Origin: Cellulosimicrobium sp. Marseille-Q4280
GTDB lineage: Bacteria; Actinomycetota; Actinomycetes; Actinomycetales; Cellulomonadaceae
Length of the DNA: 64,000 bases
Reading direction: 5' to 3'
Assembly (NCBI RefSeq): GCF_943181405.1
Contig: NZ_CALPBY010000001.1
Span: 496,001-560,000, forward strand
Made by a program: the position numbers and the translations under genes. Each line of letters starts with the position of its first letter. Positions within the stretch are counted from its first letter, which is position 1. Positions 2,029 through 59,899 of the stretch are shown one piece after another. The notes below the pieces were generated by a model. The model made no database searches and was not told the DNA's origin. It worked only from the letters and a program-made list of their open reading frames with translations.

Positions 2029-3585
2029 CTACCTCGCGGTGGCGGCGTCGACGGCGTCGGCGAGCCGCTGCACCGCCTCGTCGACCCGCGCGTCGGCGAG
2101 GTTGCCGTACCCGAGCACGAGCGTGGTCGAGCGTGCGCCGGGGGTGACCTGGTAGCGGCGCAGGTCCACGACCGCCACCTCGCGCGCCGCCGCCTCGCGC
2201 ACGACGTGGGCCGCGTCGGGTGCGTCGTCGCCCAGGTCGAGCAGCGCGTGCATCCCGGCGGCGAGGCCGCTCACGGTCGCGCGAGGCAGGTGACGGCCGA
2301 GCGCGGCGAGCACCGCGTCACGACGGGCCCGGTAGCGACGCCGCGCCGCGCGCAGGTGCCGGTCGTACGCGCCTGCCGTGACGAGACGCGCGAAGGCGAG
2401 CTGCTCGACGGTGGACGGTCCCGCCGTCGGGCCGGCCGCGCGAGCGACGGCCTCGCGCCAGCGCGCCGGCACGACCATCCACCCGAGGCCGAACGCGGGG
2501 GAGACCGTCTTGCTGATCGAGCCGAGCAGCAGCACCCGGTCCGGGTTGAGGCCCTGCAGCGCGGCGACGGGGCGGCGGTCGTAGCGGAACTCGGCGTCGT
2601 AGTCGTCCTCGACCACGAGGCCGTCGACGTCGCGCGCCCAGGCCACGACGGCCTCGCGGCGCTCGGGCGTCAGTGCCGTCCCGGTGGGGAACTGGTGCGC
2701 CGGTGTGAGGAGCGCTGCGCGGGCGCCCGTCCGTCGCGACGCGATGACGAGCGCGCCCGTGTCCACGCCGTCCGCGTCCACGGGGACGGGCACCGGTGTC
2801 AGCCCGGTGCGCGTCGCGACGTCGCGCAGCACGGGCCAGCTCGGGTCCTCGACGAGCAGGTGCGTGTGCCCGGCGGCGGCGAGCGCGGCGGCCACGCGAC
2901 CCATGCCGTCGGTCGCGCCGTGCACGAGCGCCACGGCGTCGTCCGGAGCGGCCGCGACGCGCGCGCGGCGCAGGTGTCCCGCGACGACCGCCCGCGCCGC
3001 CGGGTGCCCGCCCGGAGCCGGCGCGCCGAGGTCGTCGTTCGAGGCCGTCCCGGACGACGAGCCGAGGACGTCGCGCGTCGCGCGCACCCAGGCGTCGCGC
3101 GGGACGTGGCGCAGGTCGGGCACGCCCGGCGCGAGGTCGAACCGAGGTCGCACAGGAGGGGGCTGCCTGGCGGGAGGGACGGCGCGCGCGGGTCTACCAT
3201 CCGCCGCTCGTTCCTCGCGGCTCCCGCCAGGCCCACCACGACCCGCGCGCGCCGTCCCTCCCGCCCCGCTCGTACCGCGCCGTGCCGCGCCCGCCGCGGA
3301 GACGCGCGTGGCGGAGCCCGTGCGGGCTTCGAGGAACCCCTCGGCGACGAGCTGCCCGTAGGCCTCGGTGACGACCCACCGGGAGACGCCGAGCGTCTCG
3401 GCGAGCTGCCGGCTCGGCGGCAGCGCGGAGCCCGCGCCGACGCGGCCGGAGCGGACGGCGTCGCGGATCGCGCGCTCGAGCCGCTCCACGCGCGAACCCG
3501 GCCCGGTGCCCAGGTCGAGCAGAGCCTCCCAGGCGAGGGCCGTCGTCGGGCCCGGAGCCGGAAGATCGGTCTGGTCGATGCTCAT
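2029..3585 (-). CDS. MocR/PdxR-type GntR regulator with aminotransferase domain
   Basis: A 518-residue protein with an N-terminal GntR winged helix (about residues 28-95; SALPPSRQLAETLGVSRWVVTEAYGQLVAEGFLEAR) and a fold-type I aminotransferase-like domain. The PLP-lysine motif is LLLGSISKTVSPAFGLGW, and VEDDYDAEFRYDRRPVAALQG is another hallmark. MocR proteins sense pyridoxal phosphate or related amino compounds; PdxR controls vitamin B6 synthesis. An Arg/Gly/Pro-rich linker of roughly 55 residues joins the domains. The start MSIDQTDL at 3585 was chosen; an ATG seven codons upstream (3606) is possible. It is divergent from the aldo/keto reductase, a plausible target. Confidence 0.88.
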   Translation of the reverse strand: MSIDQTDLPAPGPTTALAWEALLDLGTGPGSRVERLERAIRDAVRSGRVGAGSALPPSRQLAETLGVSRWVVTEAYGQLVAEGFLEARTGSATRVSAAGAARRGTSGAGGTARAGRGGPGGSREERAADGRPARAVPPARQPPPVRPRFDLAPGVPDLRHVPRDAWVRATRDVLGSSSGTASNDDLGAPAPGGHPAARAVVAGHLRRARVAAAPDDAVALVHGATDGMGRVAAALAAAGHTHLLVEDPSWPVLRDVATRTGLTPVPVPVDADGVDTGALVIASRRTGARAALLTPAHQFPTGTALTPERREAVVAWARDVDGLVVEDDYDAEFRYDRRPVAALQGLNPDRVLLLGSISKTVSPAFGLGWMVVPARWREAVARAAGPTAGPSTVEQLAFARLVTAGAYDRHLRAARRRYRARRDAVLAALGRHLPRATVSGLAAGMHALLDLGDDAPDAAHVVREAAAREVAVVDLRRYQVTPGARSTTLVLGYGNLADARVDEAVQRLADAVDAATAR

Positions 3586-3666: not shown

Positions 3667-4650
3667 ATGCGCTACTGCACCATCGGCGACGGCCGCACGA
3701 CCTTCGACGTCTCGACCCTGTGCCTCGGCACGATGAACATGGGCACCCTCGTGGACGAGGACACCTCGTTCGCGATCCTCGACCGCTACCTCGAGGCCGG
3801 CGGCACGTTCCTCGACACGGCGAACAACTACAGCTCCTGGGCCGGCGGCTACGGCCGGGACAGCGAGGACCTGCTCGGCCGCTGGCTCGCGACCCGCGGC
3901 GTGCGCGACGAGGTCCGCCTCGCGACCAAGCTCGGGGCAGCGAAGAAGGACCCGGCGCTGCCGCTGCAGAACGTCGCGCCGACGAACTACCAGGGGCTGG
4001 CCGCCGACGTCGTCGAGCGGGAGGCGCACGAGAGCCTGCGCCACCTCGGCGTCGACCACCTCGACGTCCTGTACGGGCACGTCGACGACCTCGACACGCC
4101 GCTCGCCGAGACGGTCGGCGCGTTCGGCAAGCTCCAGGCCGAGGGGGTGGTGGGGATCACGGGCATCTCGAACGTCGCGCTGTGGCGCGTGGTGGAGGCG
4201 CGCGAGGAGGCGCTGCGCCAGGGGATCGCGCCCTACGGGCTCGTCCAGCAGAACCTCACCTACGTCTACCCGACGCCCGAGCCGGGGCGGCACAACTGGG
4301 CGTCGTACGAGCTGCTCGACTACGTGGCGTCGACCGGGACGCCGGAACGTCCGCCGCTCGCCGTCGTCGCGTACTCGCCGATCCTCCAGGGCGCGTACGT
4401 GCGCCGCGACAAGCCGCTGTGGGACGGCTTCGACCACCCGACGACGCGCGAGCGCGTCCGCACGCTGCACGAGGTCGCGGGCCAGACCCGCGCCACGCCG
4501 AACCAGGTCGTGCTCGCGTGGCTCCTCGGCGGCGAGCACCCGGTGATCCCGGTGATCGGGCCGAGCACGGTCGAGCAGCTCGACGAGCTCCTCGGCGCGG
4601 CCGACCTCGACCTCGACCCCGAGATCCGGGCGCGCCTCGACGCCGTCTGA
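3667..4650 (+). CDS. Aldo/keto reductase
   Basis: A 327-residue (alpha/beta)8-barrel NADPH oxidoreductase of usual family length. The catalytic tetrad is recognisable: Asp50 and Tyr55 in FLDTANNY, Lys88 in LATKLG and His138 in LYGHVDD. The C-terminal cofactor loop is VIPVIGPSTVEQLDE. The start follows GGGAGA. Pairing with a MocR regulator suggests a role connected to pyridoxal or amino-aldehyde metabolism (some aldo/keto reductases reduce pyridoxal), but this rests on neighbourhood alone. The gene is followed by a pair of palindromic repeats. Confidence 0.9.
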   Translation: MRYCTIGDGRTTFDVSTLCLGTMNMGTLVDEDTSFAILDRYLEAGGTFLDTANNYSSWAGGYGRDSEDLLGRWLATRGVRDEVRLATKLGAAKKDPALPLQNVAPTNYQGLAADVVEREAHESLRHLGVDHLDVLYGHVDDLDTPLAETVGAFGKLQAEGVVGITGISNVALWRVVEAREEALRQGIAPYGLVQQNLTYVYPTPEPGRHNWASYELLDYVASTGTPERPPLAVVAYSPILQGAYVRRDKPLWDGFDHPTTRERVRTLHEVAGQTRATPNQVVLAWLLGGEHPVIPVIGPSTVEQLDELLGAADLDLDPEIRARLDAV

Positions 4651-4656
4651 GGCCTC

Positions 4657-4700
4657 GTGTCAGGGTCACAGGTCGTCGGGGTGATCTGCGACCCTGACAC
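4657..4700. repeat. Palindromic repeat family A, copy 1
   Basis: A 44-base element with perfect 11-base inverted arms GTGTCAGGGTC (4657-4667) and GACCCTGACAC (4690-4700). The core resembles that of three other copies in the window (CACAGGTC then CGGGGTG). It lies just after the aldo/keto reductase stop and could act as a transcript hairpin, but no T-tract follows. It forms a pair with the next copy, 17 bases downstream. Confidence 0.8.
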
Positions 4701-4717: not shown

Positions 4718-4763
4718 CGTGTCAGGGCGACAGAACACCCGGGTGACCTCTCGACCTGACACG
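4718..4763. repeat. Palindromic repeat family A, copy 2
   Basis: A 46-base element whose 13-base arms (CGTGTCAGGGCGA at 4718-4730 and TCGACCTGACACG at 4751-4763) match with one mismatch. The centre contains the palindrome CACCCGGGTG. The right arm ends eight bases before the nitroreductase ATG, so the element occupies the expected promoter or leader of that gene. Same family as 4657-4700 and the two copies inside tilS. Confidence 0.8.
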
Positions 4764-4771
4764 ATCGGGGC

Positions 4772-5383
4772 ATGGAGTTCCAGGACGTCGTGCGACGCCG
4801 CCGCATGGTCCGGCGGTTCATCGCCGACCCCGTCGACCCCGCCTCGGTGGACCGCGTGCTGCGCAACGCCGTCCGCGCCCCGAGCGCCGGCTTCGCGCAG
4901 GGCTGGGCGTTCGTCGTCCTGACCGAGCCCGACGACGTCGCGCGCTTCTGGGCGGCCTCGACGCCCGCGGACTCCGAGCGGGACATGAGCGCGTGGCTCG
5001 ACGGCATGCGCACGGCCCCCGTGATCGTCCTCGTCCTCACGTCGAAGGACGCCTACCTGCGGCGGTACGCCGAGGACGACAAGGGCTGGGCCGACCGCGA
5101 CGAGAACCGGTGGGCCGTGCCGTACTGGCACGTCGACGCCGGCATGGCGTCGCTGATCATGCTCCAGACCGCGGTCGACGAGGGGCTCGGCGCGTGCTTC
5201 TTCGGCGTGCAGCCCCGTGAGGTTCCGCGGCTGCGCGAGGCGTTCGACATCCCCGACGAGTACGCGCCGACGGGCGTCGTCGCGCTCGGCCACCCGGGCG
5301 ACACCGGGCCGAGCGGGTCGCCGCGCCGCCGGGCCCGCAAGCCGCTCGACGACGTCGTGCACCGGGGCCGCTGGGGCGGTTAG
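4772..5383 (+). CDS. Nitroreductase family protein
   Basis: A 203-residue flavin oxidoreductase of the nitroreductase superfamily. The FMN-binding opening is seen (VVRRRRMVRRFIADPVD, then NAVRAPSAGFAQGW near residues 31-45), followed by a helix rich in small residues (HVDAGMASLIMLQTAVDEGLGACFFGV) and a C-terminal GVVALGHPGD. The substrate cannot be told. Its stop (TAG 5381-5383) overlaps the stop of convergent cofC in the sequence TTAG, so no intergenic terminator separates the two. Confidence 0.88.
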   Translation: MEFQDVVRRRRMVRRFIADPVDPASVDRVLRNAVRAPSAGFAQGWAFVVLTEPDDVARFWAASTPADSERDMSAWLDGMRTAPVIVLVLTSKDAYLRRYAEDDKGWADRDENRWAVPYWHVDAGMASLIMLQTAVDEGLGACFFGVQPREVPRLREAFDIPDEYAPTGVVALGHPGDTGPSGSPRRRARKPLDDVVHRGRWGG

Positions 5384-18286: not shown

Positions 18287-18307
18287 CATTTCACGATCAT
18301 GACTTGT

Positions 18308-18388
18308 GGTCACGACCGGCGGGTCACGACCGGCGGGTCACGACCGGCGGGTCACGACCGGCGGGTCACGACCGGCGGGTCACGACCA
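18308..18388. repeat. 14-base tandem repeat, about 5.8 copies
   Basis: Unit GGTCACGACCGGCG is repeated perfectly five times from 18308 to 18377, followed by a partial unit with one change. The last partial unit supplies the TGA stop of the reverse-strand hydrolase gene (TCA at 18380-18382). Each unit contains GGTC-ACGACC partial symmetry. The array fills the gap between the rRNA terminator and that gene. Confidence 0.9.
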
Positions 18389-19354
18389 GCCGTAGGACGC
18401 GACCCAGCGCACGATCTCGGCGAAGTACACGGCGCGCGGGCCCGGGGCCGACAGGGCGAGGTCGTGGATCCCGCCGGGGATGCGCACGACCGTGACCACG
18501 CGCCCGAGGTTCGGGGCGCGCCGGGCGAGCGGCTCGACGTCGAGCACGATGTCCGCGCTGCGCATGTTCTCCGTCCAGCGCGTGCTGAACAGCGAACGCT
18601 CGGCCAGGAGTACCAGGACCGGGCAGTCGATCGACAGTCCGCCCGCCACGTGCGCATGGCCGGCGATGACGGCGCGCAGCCATCCCGCCCGCACGGGGAA
18701 CGAGGGCACCGGGCGCCACGCGTCGTCGATCGTCCACGCCCCGTCCTCCCGGTCGCGGAGCGTGCGCGCGTAGTACCCGGGGTCGATGCTGGGCAGCGGA
18801 GCGCGAGGCTGGAACCGCGCGAGCTGCCGGATCGCCGGGCCGGACACGGTGCGTGCGACGGACGACCCCTGGAGCTCCAGCCAGGGACTGTTGAGGATCA
18901 GCCCGCGCACCCGCCCGGGATGGCGGTGCGCCCACAGCGACGCAACGAGCCCCCCGGTCGAGTGACCCATGAGCATCACCGCGGCGCGCGCGCCGAGCTC
19001 TTCGTGGACGACGGCGAGAGCAGCCTCCAGGTCCGCGTCGTAGACGTCGAGCGAGTCGGCGTAGCCCGGTGTCTGGTGCGGCCGCAGGCTCCGGCCGTAC
19101 TTGCGGAGGTCCAGCGCGTAGAACGCGGCACCCTGCGCGTGCCAGAGCGCGGCGAGCTCCGTCTGGAAGAAGTAGTCGCTCCAGCCGTGCAGGTACAGCA
19201 CGGCGCGGGCCGGCCGCACCGCCTCGGGCGCCGGCGGGGCGTAGCGGACGAGGGTCGCGACGACCGGTCCCTCGTCGTCGTCGTCGAGCTCGAGGGTGCG
19301 CCGGACGAAGCCGTCGCCCAGGACGTCCGGCTCCCAGTCGTGCACGTCGGGCAC
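18380..19354 (-). CDS. Alpha/beta hydrolase, monoacylglycerol lipase-like (Hydrolase_4 type)
   Basis: 324 residues. The GTG start at 19354 follows GGGGAGGGGG. The lipase fold is plain: oxyanion region LYLHGWSDYFFQTELAALWHAQGAAFYALDLRKYGRS, nucleophile elbow MGHSTGGLVASLW near residue 145, Asp in the CPVLVLLAERS region and a C-terminal His in IPGGIHDLALS. Serine hydrolases of this type cleave lysophospholipids or monoacylglycerols. It is the last gene of the metY-metX-TIGR03083 line, with a 20-base gap, so it may be read through from there. Confidence 0.87.
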   Translation of the reverse strand: MPDVHDWEPDVLGDGFVRRTLELDDDDEGPVVATLVRYAPPAPEAVRPARAVLYLHGWSDYFFQTELAALWHAQGAAFYALDLRKYGRSLRPHQTPGYADSLDVYDADLEAALAVVHEELGARAAVMLMGHSTGGLVASLWAHRHPGRVRGLILNSPWLELQGSSVARTVSGPAIRQLARFQPRAPLPSIDPGYYARTLRDREDGAWTIDDAWRPVPSFPVRAGWLRAVIAGHAHVAGGLSIDCPVLVLLAERSLFSTRWTENMRSADIVLDVEPLARRAPNLGRVVTVVRIPGGIHDLALSAPGPRAVYFAEIVRWVASYGWS

Positions 19355-22805: not shown

Positions 22806-22833
22806 GGTCTCGCTCCTGCGGGTGTCGGTGGCA

Positions 22834-22920
22834 GTGCCGGTCGGGTGCCGGTCGGGTGCCGGTCGGGTGCCGGTCGGGTGCCGGTCGGGTGCCGGTCGGG
22901 TGCCGGTCGGGTGCCGGTCT
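22834..22920. repeat. 11-base tandem repeat in the metY leader, 7 full copies plus one partial
   Basis: GTGCCGGTCGG is repeated perfectly seven times from 22834 to 22910, followed by a partial unit. It lies just upstream of the metY start (22805), in the transcribed leader. Each unit contains CCGG, so the mRNA could form slipped pairings. A unit length that is not a multiple of three keeps all frames equivalent and open. Confidence 0.92.
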
Positions 22921-23020
22921 CGGCGGGCGCGGGTGCGCCGGGGACGGCCGCAGGTGTGGGTGCTCGACACGGCCGCGGCGGGAGGGGCAGCGCACGGGGA
23001 CGTGGTGCCCGGTCGTCGCG

Positions 23021-26383: not shown

Positions 26384-26387
26384 CGCA

Positions 26388-26426
26388 CGACGGCGCCCCT
26401 CACCACGCGGGTGAGAGGCGCCGTCG
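26388..26426. terminator. Bidirectional terminator between tetR and ppa
   Basis: A 17-base stem (26388-26404 with 26410-26426) with one mismatch and a five-base loop lies directly between the two convergent stop codons. Arms begin CGACGGCGCC and end GGCGCCGTCG. Confidence 0.8.
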
Positions 26427-26440
26427 GGCGGCGGTGCGGA

Positions 26441-28801: not shown

Positions 28802-29923
28802 GTGACGCTCGTCGAGAAGCCGGACAGCCCGCCCGTCGGGCCGTCCATCGTGGACTGGTCCGCCGCCGCGCAGGTCGCCGGGCGCCTCGCGCGCCCCGGC
28901 CCGCAGGCGACGCGCGACGAGCTCGCGGACCTCGTCGACGGGCTGCGTGACGCCGCGGCGCGCGCCGTGCCGCACGTGCTCGACGTGACGCGCATGACCC
29001 CTGCGGGGGTCGCGCGACCGGCCGAGCTCGGTTCGGTGTTCGTCGTGGACCGGGCGCGCTGGGCGCAGGCCAACACCGAGATCATGGCGTCGCTCACCGC
29101 GGGGGTCGCGGACGCGCTGCTCTCCGACGGCTCCGACCGCCCGCCGCGCGTGCCGCAGGCGACGGCACTCGTCGGTGCCGCGCAGGTCGGGTCCGTGCTC
29201 GCCGTCCTCGCGAGCCGTGTGCTCGGGCAGTTCGACCCGTACAGCGCCGCGTCCGGCGGACCGGGCCGCCTCGTGCTCGTCGCGCCCAATGTGCTGCAGG
29301 TCGAGCGCGCGCTCGACCTCGTCCCGGCCGACTTCCGGCTCTGGGTGTGCCTGCACGAGCAGACGCACGCGCTGCAGTTCGCCACGGCGCCCTGGCTCGC
29401 GACGCACCTCCGCGACCGGGCCGGTCGCCTGCTCACCGACCTGTCCGCGTCGTCGCGCCGGCTCGCCGAGGCGCGGCTGCGGGAGAAGCTGCGGACCGTG
29501 GGCCGCGCGGTGCTCGACGCCGTGCGCGGTGAGGGCGGCACGCTCGTCGACGGCTTCCTCACGGACGACGAGCGTCGGCAGCTCGAGGACGTGTCGGCGG
29601 TCATGGCGCTGCTCGAGGGGCACGCCGACGTCGCGATGGACGCAGTCGGGCCGCGCACCGTCCGCACGGTGCGCAGCATCCGCCGGAAGTTCGAGGCGCG
29701 GCGCGACGGCTCGGGCGCGTCGGGTGCCGACGTCGTGCTGCGCCGCGTGCTCGGCATGGACGCCAAGATCGCGCAGTACCGCGACGGCGCCGCGTTCGTG
29801 CGCGCGGTCGAGAAGCTCGTGGGCCGCGACGGCTTCAACGCCGTGTGGGCAGCGCCCGAGAACCTGCCGACCGCTCGCGAGATCGCCGACGCGCGCGCCT
29901 GGGTGCGCCGCGTCCACGGCTGA
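28802..29923 (+). CDS. DUF2342 zinc-metallopeptidase-like protein associated with F420 biosynthesis
   Basis: 373 residues. [10 protein letters not shown] near residue 190 is an HExxH zinc motif, and [14 protein letters not shown] supplies a further Glu. Conserved [13 protein letters not shown] and RKFEARRDG mark the DUF2342 family, some members of which co-occur with coenzyme F420 genes. The biochemical role is unknown and peptidase activity is not established for the family. TACCGT is six bases before the GTG (28802), indicating a leaderless start of the long forward operon. The tilS start follows by four bases. Confidence 0.85.
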
Positions 29924-29927
29924 GACC

Positions 29928-31094
29928 GTGGGCGGTCCGGCGCCCGTCGTCGCGGACGCGCGCCGCGCGGTGCGGACGGCGCTCGCGGACCTGGGTGACG
30001 GCGACCTCGTGCTCGTCGCGTGCTCGGGCGGCGCGGACTCGACGGCGCTCGCGGCGGCGGCGGCGTTCGTCGCGCCGCGCCTCGGCCTGCGGGCGGGTGC
30101 GGTCGTCGTCGACCACGGGCTCCAGGTGGGCAGCGCCGAGGTCGCGGCGGCCGCGGCGGCGCGCTGCCGCGACCTCGGGCTCGACCCGGTCGAGGTGCGC
30201 CGCGTCGTCGTGCCCGCGTCCGGCGCCGGTCCGGAGGCCGACGCCCGCGCCGCTCGGTACTCGGCGCTCGACGCCGCGGCCACCGCGCTCGGCGCCGCGG
30301 CGGTCCTGCTCGGCCACACGCTCGACGACCAGGCCGAGACCGTCCTGCTCGGGCTCGCGCGCGGCGCCGGCGCGCGGTCGCTCGCGGGCATGGCCCCACG
30401 TCGCGGGGTCCTGCGCCGCCCGTTCCTCGGGCTGCGCCGCACCGACACCGAGGCGGTGTGCCGGACGCTCGGCCTCGACTGGTGGGACGACCCGACCAAC
30501 CACGTGTCAGGGCCACAGGTCACCGGGGCGGCCTCTCGTCCTGACACGGGGACGACGGCGCGCGCCGCGTCAGGGCCACAGGTCACCGGGGTGTCTCCTC
30601 GCCCTGACACGAGCGCGCCGCTGCGCTCGCGCGTGCGGGCCGCCGTCGTCCCGGCGCTCGTCGAGGTGCTCGGACCGGGCGCGGTCCCCGGGCTCGCGCG
30701 CACCGCCGACCTGCTGCGCGACGACGCCGACCTCCTCGACGCGCTCGCCGCCGGTCTCCTCGACCGTGCGCTGGTCGTGCCCGACGCCGGCCCCGCGGTC
30801 GCGCCCGTGGAGCTGGACCTTGCGGTGCTCGCCGCGGCGCACCCCGCGCTGCGCCGACGGGCCCTGCGGTCCGCCGCGCTGCGCGCGGGCTGTCCGGCGA
30901 GCGACCTGTTCGCGGTGCACGTCGACGCGCTCGACGCGCTCGTCGTCGGCTGGCGCGGGCAGGGTCCCGTGCACCTGCCGGGCGACCTCCGGGGCAGCCG
31001 GTCGTGTGGCAGGCTTGCTCTGGGTCCTCCGGGGCCACCCCTCCGCACGGACCCGGCACCCACCACCGCCCCCACCCCTGCACCCCAGACCTAG
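29928..31094 (+). CDS. tilS: tRNA(Ile)-lysidine synthetase with in-frame palindromic-repeat insertion
   Basis: 388 residues. It converts C34 of tRNA-Ile(CAU) to lysidine so that AUA codons are read, an essential step. The P-loop [45 protein letters not shown] and DWWDDPTN are diagnostic. Directly after DPTN, residues about 192-228 come from two palindromic repeats (30503-30610, exactly 108 bases) and read as a doubled SGPQVTG...RPDT unit. The normal sequence resumes at [16 protein letters not shown]. The insertion falls in a surface-type loop before the helix that carries conserved arginines, so activity may persist. The GTG start lies four bases after the DUF2342 stop. Confidence 0.92.
30503..30548. 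repeat. Palindromic repeat family A, copy 3 (inside tilS)
   Basis: A 46-base element with nine-base perfect outer arms CGTGTCAGG (30503-30511) and CCTGACACG (30540-30548) and the shared core CACAGGTCACCGGGG. It is the left member of an 18-base-spaced pair and is translated within tilS. Confidence 0.85.
30567..30610. repeat. Palindromic repeat family A, copy 4 (inside tilS)
   Basis: A 44-base element with arms GCGTCAGGGC (30567-30576) and GCCCTGACAC (30601-30610), one mismatch, and core CACAGGTCACCGGGGTG identical over most of its length to copy 3. Together with copy 3 and the spacer it spans 108 bases, a multiple of three. Confidence 0.85.
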
Positions 31095-31105
31095 GAGCGT
31101 CACCC

Positions 31106-31660
31106 GTGGAAGCATCGGACGTCGCAGGCGACCTCGAGAACGTGCTGCTCACCGAGGAGCAGCTCGCCCAGAGGCTCGACGAGATCGCCGCGCAGATCGA
31201 CCGGGACTACGCGGGCAAGGACCTGCTTCTCGTCGGCGTGCTGAAGGGAGCGGTCATGGTGATGGCCGACCTCGCGCGCCGCCTGAGCCACCCCGTCGAG
31301 ATGGACTGGATGGCGGTGTCGTCGTACGGCTCCGGGACCAAGTCCTCCGGCGTGGTGCGCATCCTCAAGGACCTCGACGCCGACCTGACGGGCCGCAACG
31401 TGCTCATCGTCGAGGACATCATCGACTCGGGGCTCACGCTGTCCTGGCTCCTGTCCAACCTGCGCTCGCGCGGCCCGGAGTCGGTCGAGATCGCGGCGAT
31501 GCTGCGCAAGCCCGACGCCGCGAAGACCGACGTCGACGTGCGCTACATCGGGTTCGACATCCCCAACGAGTTCGTCGTCGGGTACGGCCTGGACTACGCC
31601 GAGAAGTACCGCAACCTGCCGTTCGTCGGCACGCTCGCCCCGCACGTCTACTCGAGCTGA
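31106..31660 (+). CDS. hpt: Hypoxanthine phosphoribosyltransferase
   Basis: 184 residues. It salvages hypoxanthine and guanine with PRPP. The PRPP signature [14 protein letters not shown] and the flexible-loop region MAVSSYGSG are present, as are the N-terminal [16 protein letters not shown] and the C-terminal [18 protein letters not shown] 31106 follows AGGAG. Its position after tilS and before ftsH is conserved across most bacteria and helps confirm all three. Confidence 0.97.
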
Positions 31661-59854: not shown

Positions 59855-59899
59855 GCACGACGGCGCCGCTCCCCACCGAGGGGAGCGGCGCCGTCGTGC
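59855..59899. terminator. Bidirectional terminator after pstB
   Basis: A perfect 20-base stem (59855-59874 with 59880-59899) and a five-base loop between pstB and the convergent lipoprotein gene. The arms begin GCACGACGGC and end GCCGTCGTGC. Confidence 0.9.

Follow-up and report, generated by a model that had tools for sequence, protein, structure and literature searches.

Short palindromes inserted in frame in genes of a Cellulosimicrobium genome, and an AbiEi-like gene encoded between some of them

Introduction

Most known cases of palindromes invading protein-coding sequences come from intracellular Rickettsiales, the rest from a small number of other genomes, and for part of these palindromes we know of no enzyme. 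Gene conversion has been proposed for the short palindromic REPs of enterobacteria. According to the accessible sections of two reports, the palindromic elements of Rickettsia (RPEs) are in-frame insertions in open reading frames, orthologs can carry members of different groups at one site or close to it, and BirA is among the hosts (PMC3767692; PMC10969869). REPs of the CGTC and GTAG type are described, in the part of the source available to us, as monomers and dimers in both gaps and genes, with dimers or groups that encode 20–30 residues accounting for over half of the inserts within genes, and CGTC REPs are described there as lacking a dedicated transposase (PMC3733652). For REPINs, the sections consulted of two studies state that the length of the spacer matters more than its sequence (PMC3116915; PMC3733652). 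The word "actinobacteria" is absent from PMC3733652, and a search of the literature outside most subscription journals found nothing on such elements in this group.

Here we describe a palindrome family in the actinobacterium Cellulosimicrobium sp. Marseille-Q4280, starting from a window of 64,000 nucleotides (C1:496001–560000 of a 4.86-Mb genome in 12 contigs) in which an earlier note had reported a pair of palindromes within tilS. Positions given without a contig or locus are those of the window.

Results

A palindrome pair within tilS

The gene at 29928–31094 (plus strand, predicted start codon) encodes tRNA-Ile lysidine synthetase, as the earlier note had proposed: PF01171 matches residues 28–192, PF09179 matches residues 296–355, and the match to TIGR02432 exceeds the family cut-off. 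Both domains are kept, and an insert of residues 193–228 follows directly after DDPTNH. It is encoded by two imperfect palindromes whose 44-nt cores lie on the plus strand at 30504–30547 (66.8 bits, E = 3e-11) and 30567–30610 (61.0 bits, E = 4.6e-10), with a start-to-start distance of 63; each translates to 14 residues, then T, which together make up the doubled peptide that had been noticed after the DPTN motif. With its flanking bases, the first copy reads CGTGTCAGG...CCTGACACG at 30503–30548, and the second copy ends at 30611. The 19-nt gap between the cores (30548–30566) has the length seen in other in-gene pairs and a sequence not common to them. Pair and spacer form a unit of 108 nt (30504–30611, plus strand, with ends that can slide by 1 base) or 36 codons (15+6+15), and this previously claimed length is matched by a clean 108-nt alignment gap in tilS of the congeners G002, G011, and G010. 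No Rfam family matched the region 29900–31200 up to E 1.

The earlier note had predicted that the 36 residues would be missing or variable in relatives. In the 15 of 16 congeners whose tilS linker was read (all except G003), neither these residues nor the palindrome ends were found; the linkers vary in length, and at most 7 of 12 outer bases agree with palindrome ends. For G005, a possible decayed unit in tilS was considered and rejected, as its ends score 7/12, no better than those of other congeners. The prediction was thus borne out. Congeners do carry such elements elsewhere, with sequence types of their own.

A second pair lies in an intergenic region of the window, with palindromes at 4657–4700 and 4719–4762 and a spacing of 62; it belongs to the same family, which bears out the kinship suggested for it. 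The window also holds a second, unrelated palindrome family, GCACGACGGCGCC...GGCGCCGTCGTGC, at 26385–26429 and 59855–59899 (and in locus L093 at 3028–3071), possibly representing terminators, as well as tandem 11-bp units GTGCCGGTCGG at 22823–22943 and tandem 14-bp units GGTCACGACCGGCG at 18294–18404.

A dispersed family in genes and gaps

The repeat unit is an imperfect palindrome of 44–45 nt, in which the ends TGTCAG...CTGACA are constant and the stem depends on the lineage; in this genus, units mostly occur in twos, about 62 nt apart. A gapped pattern describing it matched four times in the window (both strands counted) and never in 100 dinucleotide shuffles; in the whole genome it gave 26 forward and 27 reverse matches, compared to 0 + 0 for the reversed-pattern control. 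A covariance model built from 23 copies returned 103 matches, falling on 53 separate places, with E values of 1 or less. With one of these dropped as a member of another palindrome family (C5:389027, L093) and a partner in L085 added by eye, at least 53 palindromes of the family are spread over 29 loci in this genome, two of them with E near 0.1 (C6:30294 and C1:213975); this count is a lower bound because 150 of 12499 first-look candidates were scored. The additional copies that the earlier note had expected are therefore present, both in genes and in gaps.

Based on open frames, GC3, translations, and flanking sequences, 16 loci (28 palindromes) were classified as in-gene and 13 as intergenic. 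Because a simple gene caller missed some of these 16 genes, including tilS, the in-gene class relies on Pfam, which identified a domain in each of the 16 insert-carrying proteins, so that the repeat does lie in frame within predicted functional genes. The hosts are TilS, BirA, CydC, an MFS protein, UreD, a heavy-metal ATPase (with a pair plus a single copy), two ABC-F-like proteins, an ABC ATPase, a MaoC protein, a CCG protein, a zinc-type dehydrogenase, an FAD/Fe-S oxidoreductase, an ABC-2 permease, a molybdopterin oxidoreductase that we read as NasA-like, and a pyridine-nucleotide oxidoreductase with a BFD domain that we read as NirB-like. The insert is C-terminal in the CCG protein and N-terminal in the ABC-2 permease, where it depends on the choice of start codon, and the ABC-F copy in L094 is a weak case, both strands being open there. 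No consistent target-site duplication, of the kind that goes with terminal inverted repeats in a MITE, was seen across the loci of this genome when read by eye. The arms of these copies do not covary, the outer pairs being fixed by the selecting pattern, and the copies may therefore be decaying.

Reading frame, codons, and spacing

All 28 in-gene palindromes are read in one frame, mostly as [VL]SG..VTG....PD[TS]. We rejected this uniformity as a sign of selection for the peptide: with both strands considered, stops close all frames of the consensus but one, so the shared frame reflects survivorship, although an individual copy can have a second open frame. Of 27 in-gene copies (L094 left out), 25 have TCA as the second codon, for serine, and 26 have CCT as the thirteenth, for proline, vs 2.9% of serine codons and 5.3% of proline codons in sampled genes (elements still included). 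Because these rare codons are kept, conservation is at the DNA level; the earlier note had set this pattern against one of protein-level conservation in all relatives. Neither of the two outcomes that it named as refutations, the latter pattern and a lack of further copies, was observed.

Two units together span 106–108 nt, and a single unit 44–45 nt. Start-to-start spacing is 63 in 10 of 11 in-gene pairs (105 in the remaining one) and 62 in 11 of 12 intergenic pairs (61 in the other); leaving out the 105-spaced pair, a spacing of 63 is found in 10/10 standard in-gene pairs vs 0/12 intergenic ones (Fisher 1.5e-6). Spacer sequences are not shared between copies. The best-scoring strand is the same for both units in 16 of 22 pairs and opposite in six, the units being near-symmetric. 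Coding-strand mismatches include more A.C (33) than G.U (22). Among congeners, eight pairs judged intergenic are spaced by 61, three of which represent one locus in three species and two of which were placed by a script inside long open frames that we read as 5' extensions, and G008 has two in-gene pairs with a spacing of 60.

Sister families and a related type in another genus

Across 17 genomes of the genus, the pattern TGTCAGS N26-30 SCTGACA gave forward counts of 37 in this genome, 25 in G013, 23 in G015, 15 in G008, and 12 in G009, one to three in seven genomes and none in five, with zero control matches. Congener families have the same TGTCAG/CTGACA ends and other interiors. Interior identity, computed on sequences from among the matches listed (none of them from G013), is 0.64–0.69 within families and 0.69 within that of this genome, falls to 0.35–0.44 between this genome and G008, G009, or G015, and is 0.34 for shuffled copies from this genome. 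These values are based on 26 of the 53 copies of this genome (25 of 30 pattern-scan places plus the second tilS copy), 13 of 15 from G008 (two of other length left out), and 11 of 12 from G009 and 22 of 23 from G015 (one odd copy left out of each). The corresponding identity to seven sequences from another genus of the family, g7, is 0.67, about as close as copies of this genome are to each other, whereas DNA identity across the tilS region is 82% between this genome and G015 and 72% between this genome and g7 (G022).

At E 0.01 and with strict filters, the covariance model matched in 28 of 221 family genomes, 13 of which belong to g7 and hold the most matches. Palindromes of g7 are near-perfect and single, with 0 of 19 sites in G220 and G221 having a partner 50–80 nt away, and many lie directly 3' of stop codons when inspected by eye. 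Their covariation score and number of double-change cells, determined on 13 of the 19 sites, exceed those of 500/500 shuffles; double-change pairs are no more numerous than in shuffles (121/500 reach their number). One palindrome, whose interior reads ...ACCGGTCTATAGCCTGGTGAG..., is found almost unchanged in G012, G009, G007, and G015 (L297 3224, L298 3343, L299 3121, and L300 3135), differs from the other copies of these genomes, and is perhaps now part of a promoter. Viral contigs gave no match to the palindrome core, and plasmids gave none to the g7 palindrome or the L105 protein (see below) and only weak partial matches to the tilS unit.

Palindromes in the same linkers of different species

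Six in-gene sites were compared with congeners, using one genome per species, and at four of them a congener also has a palindrome in that linker, either at the identical residue or no more than six codons away. At the first ATPase site, palindrome ends (11 or 12 of 12) are present in G003, G005, G007, G008, G009, and G015 and absent from the eight others read, a set that does not include G013 and G004; the position is the same residue in this genome, G003, and G008. Ends at the second ATPase site were found in G003 (10/12), G008, and G015 and not in the 12 others read. The NasA-like site has a palindrome in G008, and the NirB-like site in G008 and G015, the only congeners read there. Because positions at these two sites are two to six codons apart between species, they may also reflect insertion hot spots. 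At the BirA site, none of the 15 congeners read has palindrome ends. The congener linkers after KWPNDVLVPD (L236–L250), which lack such ends, vary in length and sequence, and may or may not be decayed inserts.

In 13 comparisons between orthologs, copies are 0.32–0.57 identical on the same strand and 0.39–0.61 on the best strand, compared to best-strand identities of 0.59–0.76 to the family of this genome; two comparisons, both at ATPase site 1, attain 0.61 vs a value of 0.63–0.65 to this family. The inserts in genes are whole blocks of 15 or 36 residues. We think it more likely that copies were replaced in place than that hot spots were invaded repeatedly.

An AbiEi-like gene between palindromes

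In four loci, a gene of ~310 codons lies between palindromes about 1.1 kb apart: in this genome L091 (C5, minus strand, stop at 3132, palindromes at 3016/3078 and 4166/4228) and L289 (C1, 4817–5767, minus strand, palindromes at 4698/4759 and 5943/6004), in G015 L292 (plus strand, ending at 5242, palindromes at 4079/4140 and 5257), and in g7 genome G220 L105 (2085–3017, plus strand, palindromes at 1868 and 3023). The nearest 3' palindrome is 5–16 bp from the stop codon in 4/4 loci, and the 5' palindrome 105–175 bp from the likely start. Two of the four genes were missed by the simple gene caller. A tblastn search with three of the four proteins against the loci examined, mostly picked for carrying palindromes, found homologs at E 1e-8 or better only in L091, L289, L292, and L105. 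Other genes between palindromes 1.2–1.6 kb apart are ordinary ones, at a nitrate locus and, in G009 (L293), an acyltransferase.

PADLOC AbiEi models match the N-terminal two thirds of all four proteins, with best E values of 2.6e-17 to 4.3e-23. The proteins had no Pfam match at the default threshold and weak ones beyond it (AbiEi_4, E 0.0012; AbiEi_3_N, 0.0075; DUF559, 0.036, in one of the four; MTES_1575, 0.038), nothing of note in NCBIfam, and no match among solved structures. They share the motifs LD..W....GRRL.VE.DG.GH and RWYDDLLRDAEL, which we take to recall Vsr-like nucleases. No link of AbiEi-type or DUF559 proteins to dispersed palindromes was found in a limited search of the literature.

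Protein identity is 70% between L091 and L105 and 79% between L289 and L292, compared to 60% between L091 and L289, both from this genome, and 57% between L105 and L292. L091 lies between palindromes of this genome's own type and L289 between those of congener type. Hence protein kinship follows palindrome kinship, as for RAYTs and REPs, and an organization similar to that of REPtrons is present, in which palindromes flank one gene whose kinship tracks palindrome type. Since L289 and L292 represent one locus shared by two species (77% DNA identity over 9.9 kb), the four loci amount to three independent cases. Palindromes of congener type thus persist in this genome (G000) around L289, at C1:842697–844044, with a spacing of 61.

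The RAYT-type transposase Y1_Tnp was rejected as the cognate enzyme: the gene was not found in this genome, in the nine family genomes that include it, or in 219 of 221 family genomes, and the fetched loci of the two exceptions (L233 in G164 and L234 in G129) lack GTGTCAG/CTGACAC. A RAYT below detection is possible. Farther afield, GTGTCAGG/CCTGACAC repeats lie close to Y1_Tnp genes in Fusibacter and a Thiotrichales MAG (L225 and L224), among the matches listed of a scan whose 28-nt interior was set by the search pattern and many of whose listed matches are probably due to chance; these palindromes have the outer octamer GTGTCAGG as here, but their interiors and phyla differ.

Discussion

These repeats are probably a family of very short mobile palindromes that works like REPs and RPEs, occurs within one family of actinobacteria, and has a different kind of enzyme, although the role of that enzyme, as well as movement and replacement, we infer. 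Within genes, only translatable in-frame copies would survive, at tolerant linkers. The flanked AbiEi-like gene would represent the autonomous copy, its AbiEi-like half binding the palindromes and the other half cutting DNA; the chances that this protein binds and cuts, and that palindromes thereby spread in trans, seem to us evenly balanced. Repair, or folded-strand copying from another palindrome, would then insert copies or replace them, so that spreading may include the loss of residents, and a near-constant spacing with no conservation of the spacer would fit a protein gripping two dyads about six helical turns apart. At sites where congeners have other types, this genome would now have a type and an enzyme related to those of g7, and three palindromes around L289 may be relics of an older genus-type system, the g7-like one having come later. 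The full proposal is more tentative: a new kind of enzyme that joins an AbiEi-like DNA-binding protein to a nuclease of the Vsr/DUF559 kind, and is encoded between its own palindromes, would spread 44-nt palindromes in trans and overwrite residents, and after transfer between genera one type would have replaced another genome-wide, changing the linkers of unrelated enzymes all together.

Several other processes could produce part of this picture. The linkers may be hot spots at which each lineage's own mobile type was inserted independently, with no replacement. The tilS and BirA linkers vary freely in length between congeners, the NasA-like and NirB-like positions lie a few codons apart, and the Rickettsia study, in its accessible part, leaves hot spots open for RPE-4, RPE-6, and RPE-7 (PMC3767692); we nevertheless consider this unlikely given that four of six sites coincide within six codons in genes of thousands of codons, and that the first ATPase site is at the same residue in this genome, G003, and G008. 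It is likewise improbable that a host DNA-binding protein, AbiEi-like or other, recognizes the palindromes as sites that are kept by selection, change along with its specificity, and are immobile today. Such sites would suit a near-constant spacing with a free spacer sequence, arms that lack compensatory changes in this genome, ends that persist across species, and the annotation of AbiEi-type proteins as regulators, yet the evolution of sites by substitution does not insert whole blocks of 15 or 36 residues, and a type near that of another genus is found here at sites with other types in congeners.

Strong inverted repeats, and the many g7 copies seen by eye just 3' of stop codons, could also point to bidirectional transcription terminators or RNA hairpins. 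We regard this as very unlikely, with 28 copies inside predicted genes, A.C mismatches on the coding strand in excess of G.U, and the tilS region free of Rfam matches. Finally, GC-rich sequence contains many weak repeats, but the zero control matches and the related families in many separate genomes leave chance repeats or an assembly artefact with a negligible probability, and we rejected this explanation.

If mobile palindromes with replacement are the correct reading, the system would give a first role to one of many uncharacterised AbiEi/DUF559-like proteins. With many sequenced species and a candidate enzyme, this free-living genus of actinobacteria would open the phenomenon to experiment, and because ends, stems, and spacing can be compared at the same linkers between species, it also makes the concerted evolution of dispersed repeats testable.

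Overall, elements of this kind are known; the novelty lies in a family from actinobacteria with ends and a spacing of its own, in the gene that its palindromes flank, and in indications of replacement. As in the available descriptions of RPEs and the WPEs of Wolbachia, short palindromic repeats lie in frame in housekeeping genes, and BirA is a host in both; the likeness to RPEs suggested in the earlier note is supported at the level of behavior, from descriptions rather than by comparison to RPE sequences. RPEs are described as 100–150 bp long, whereas the unit here is 44–45 nt, often doubled (106–108 nt) at a spacing of 62 or 63; its ends are TGTCAG...CTGACA, its host is a GC-rich actinobacterium, and copies of it flank a gene. 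CGTC and GTAG REPs, in the part of the source consulted, are also short palindromes found as single units and pairs in gaps and genes; here, the ends GTGTCAGG/CCTGACAC are paired, with no unpaired GTAG or CGTC tag, the stem is ~20 bp instead of 5–13, and the two units of a pair have the same best strand in 16 of 22 cases whereas REP dimers are described as mostly head-to-head (PMC3733652). REPINs are described, in the sections available, as extragenic, and the palindromes here also lie inside genes. As reported in the accessible descriptions of REPtrons, palindromes flank an enzyme gene at some loci and are dispersed elsewhere without it, but the flanked gene here is AbiEi-like, with PADLOC AbiEi matches in 4/4 proteins and a weak DUF559 match in one, instead of Y1_Tnp.
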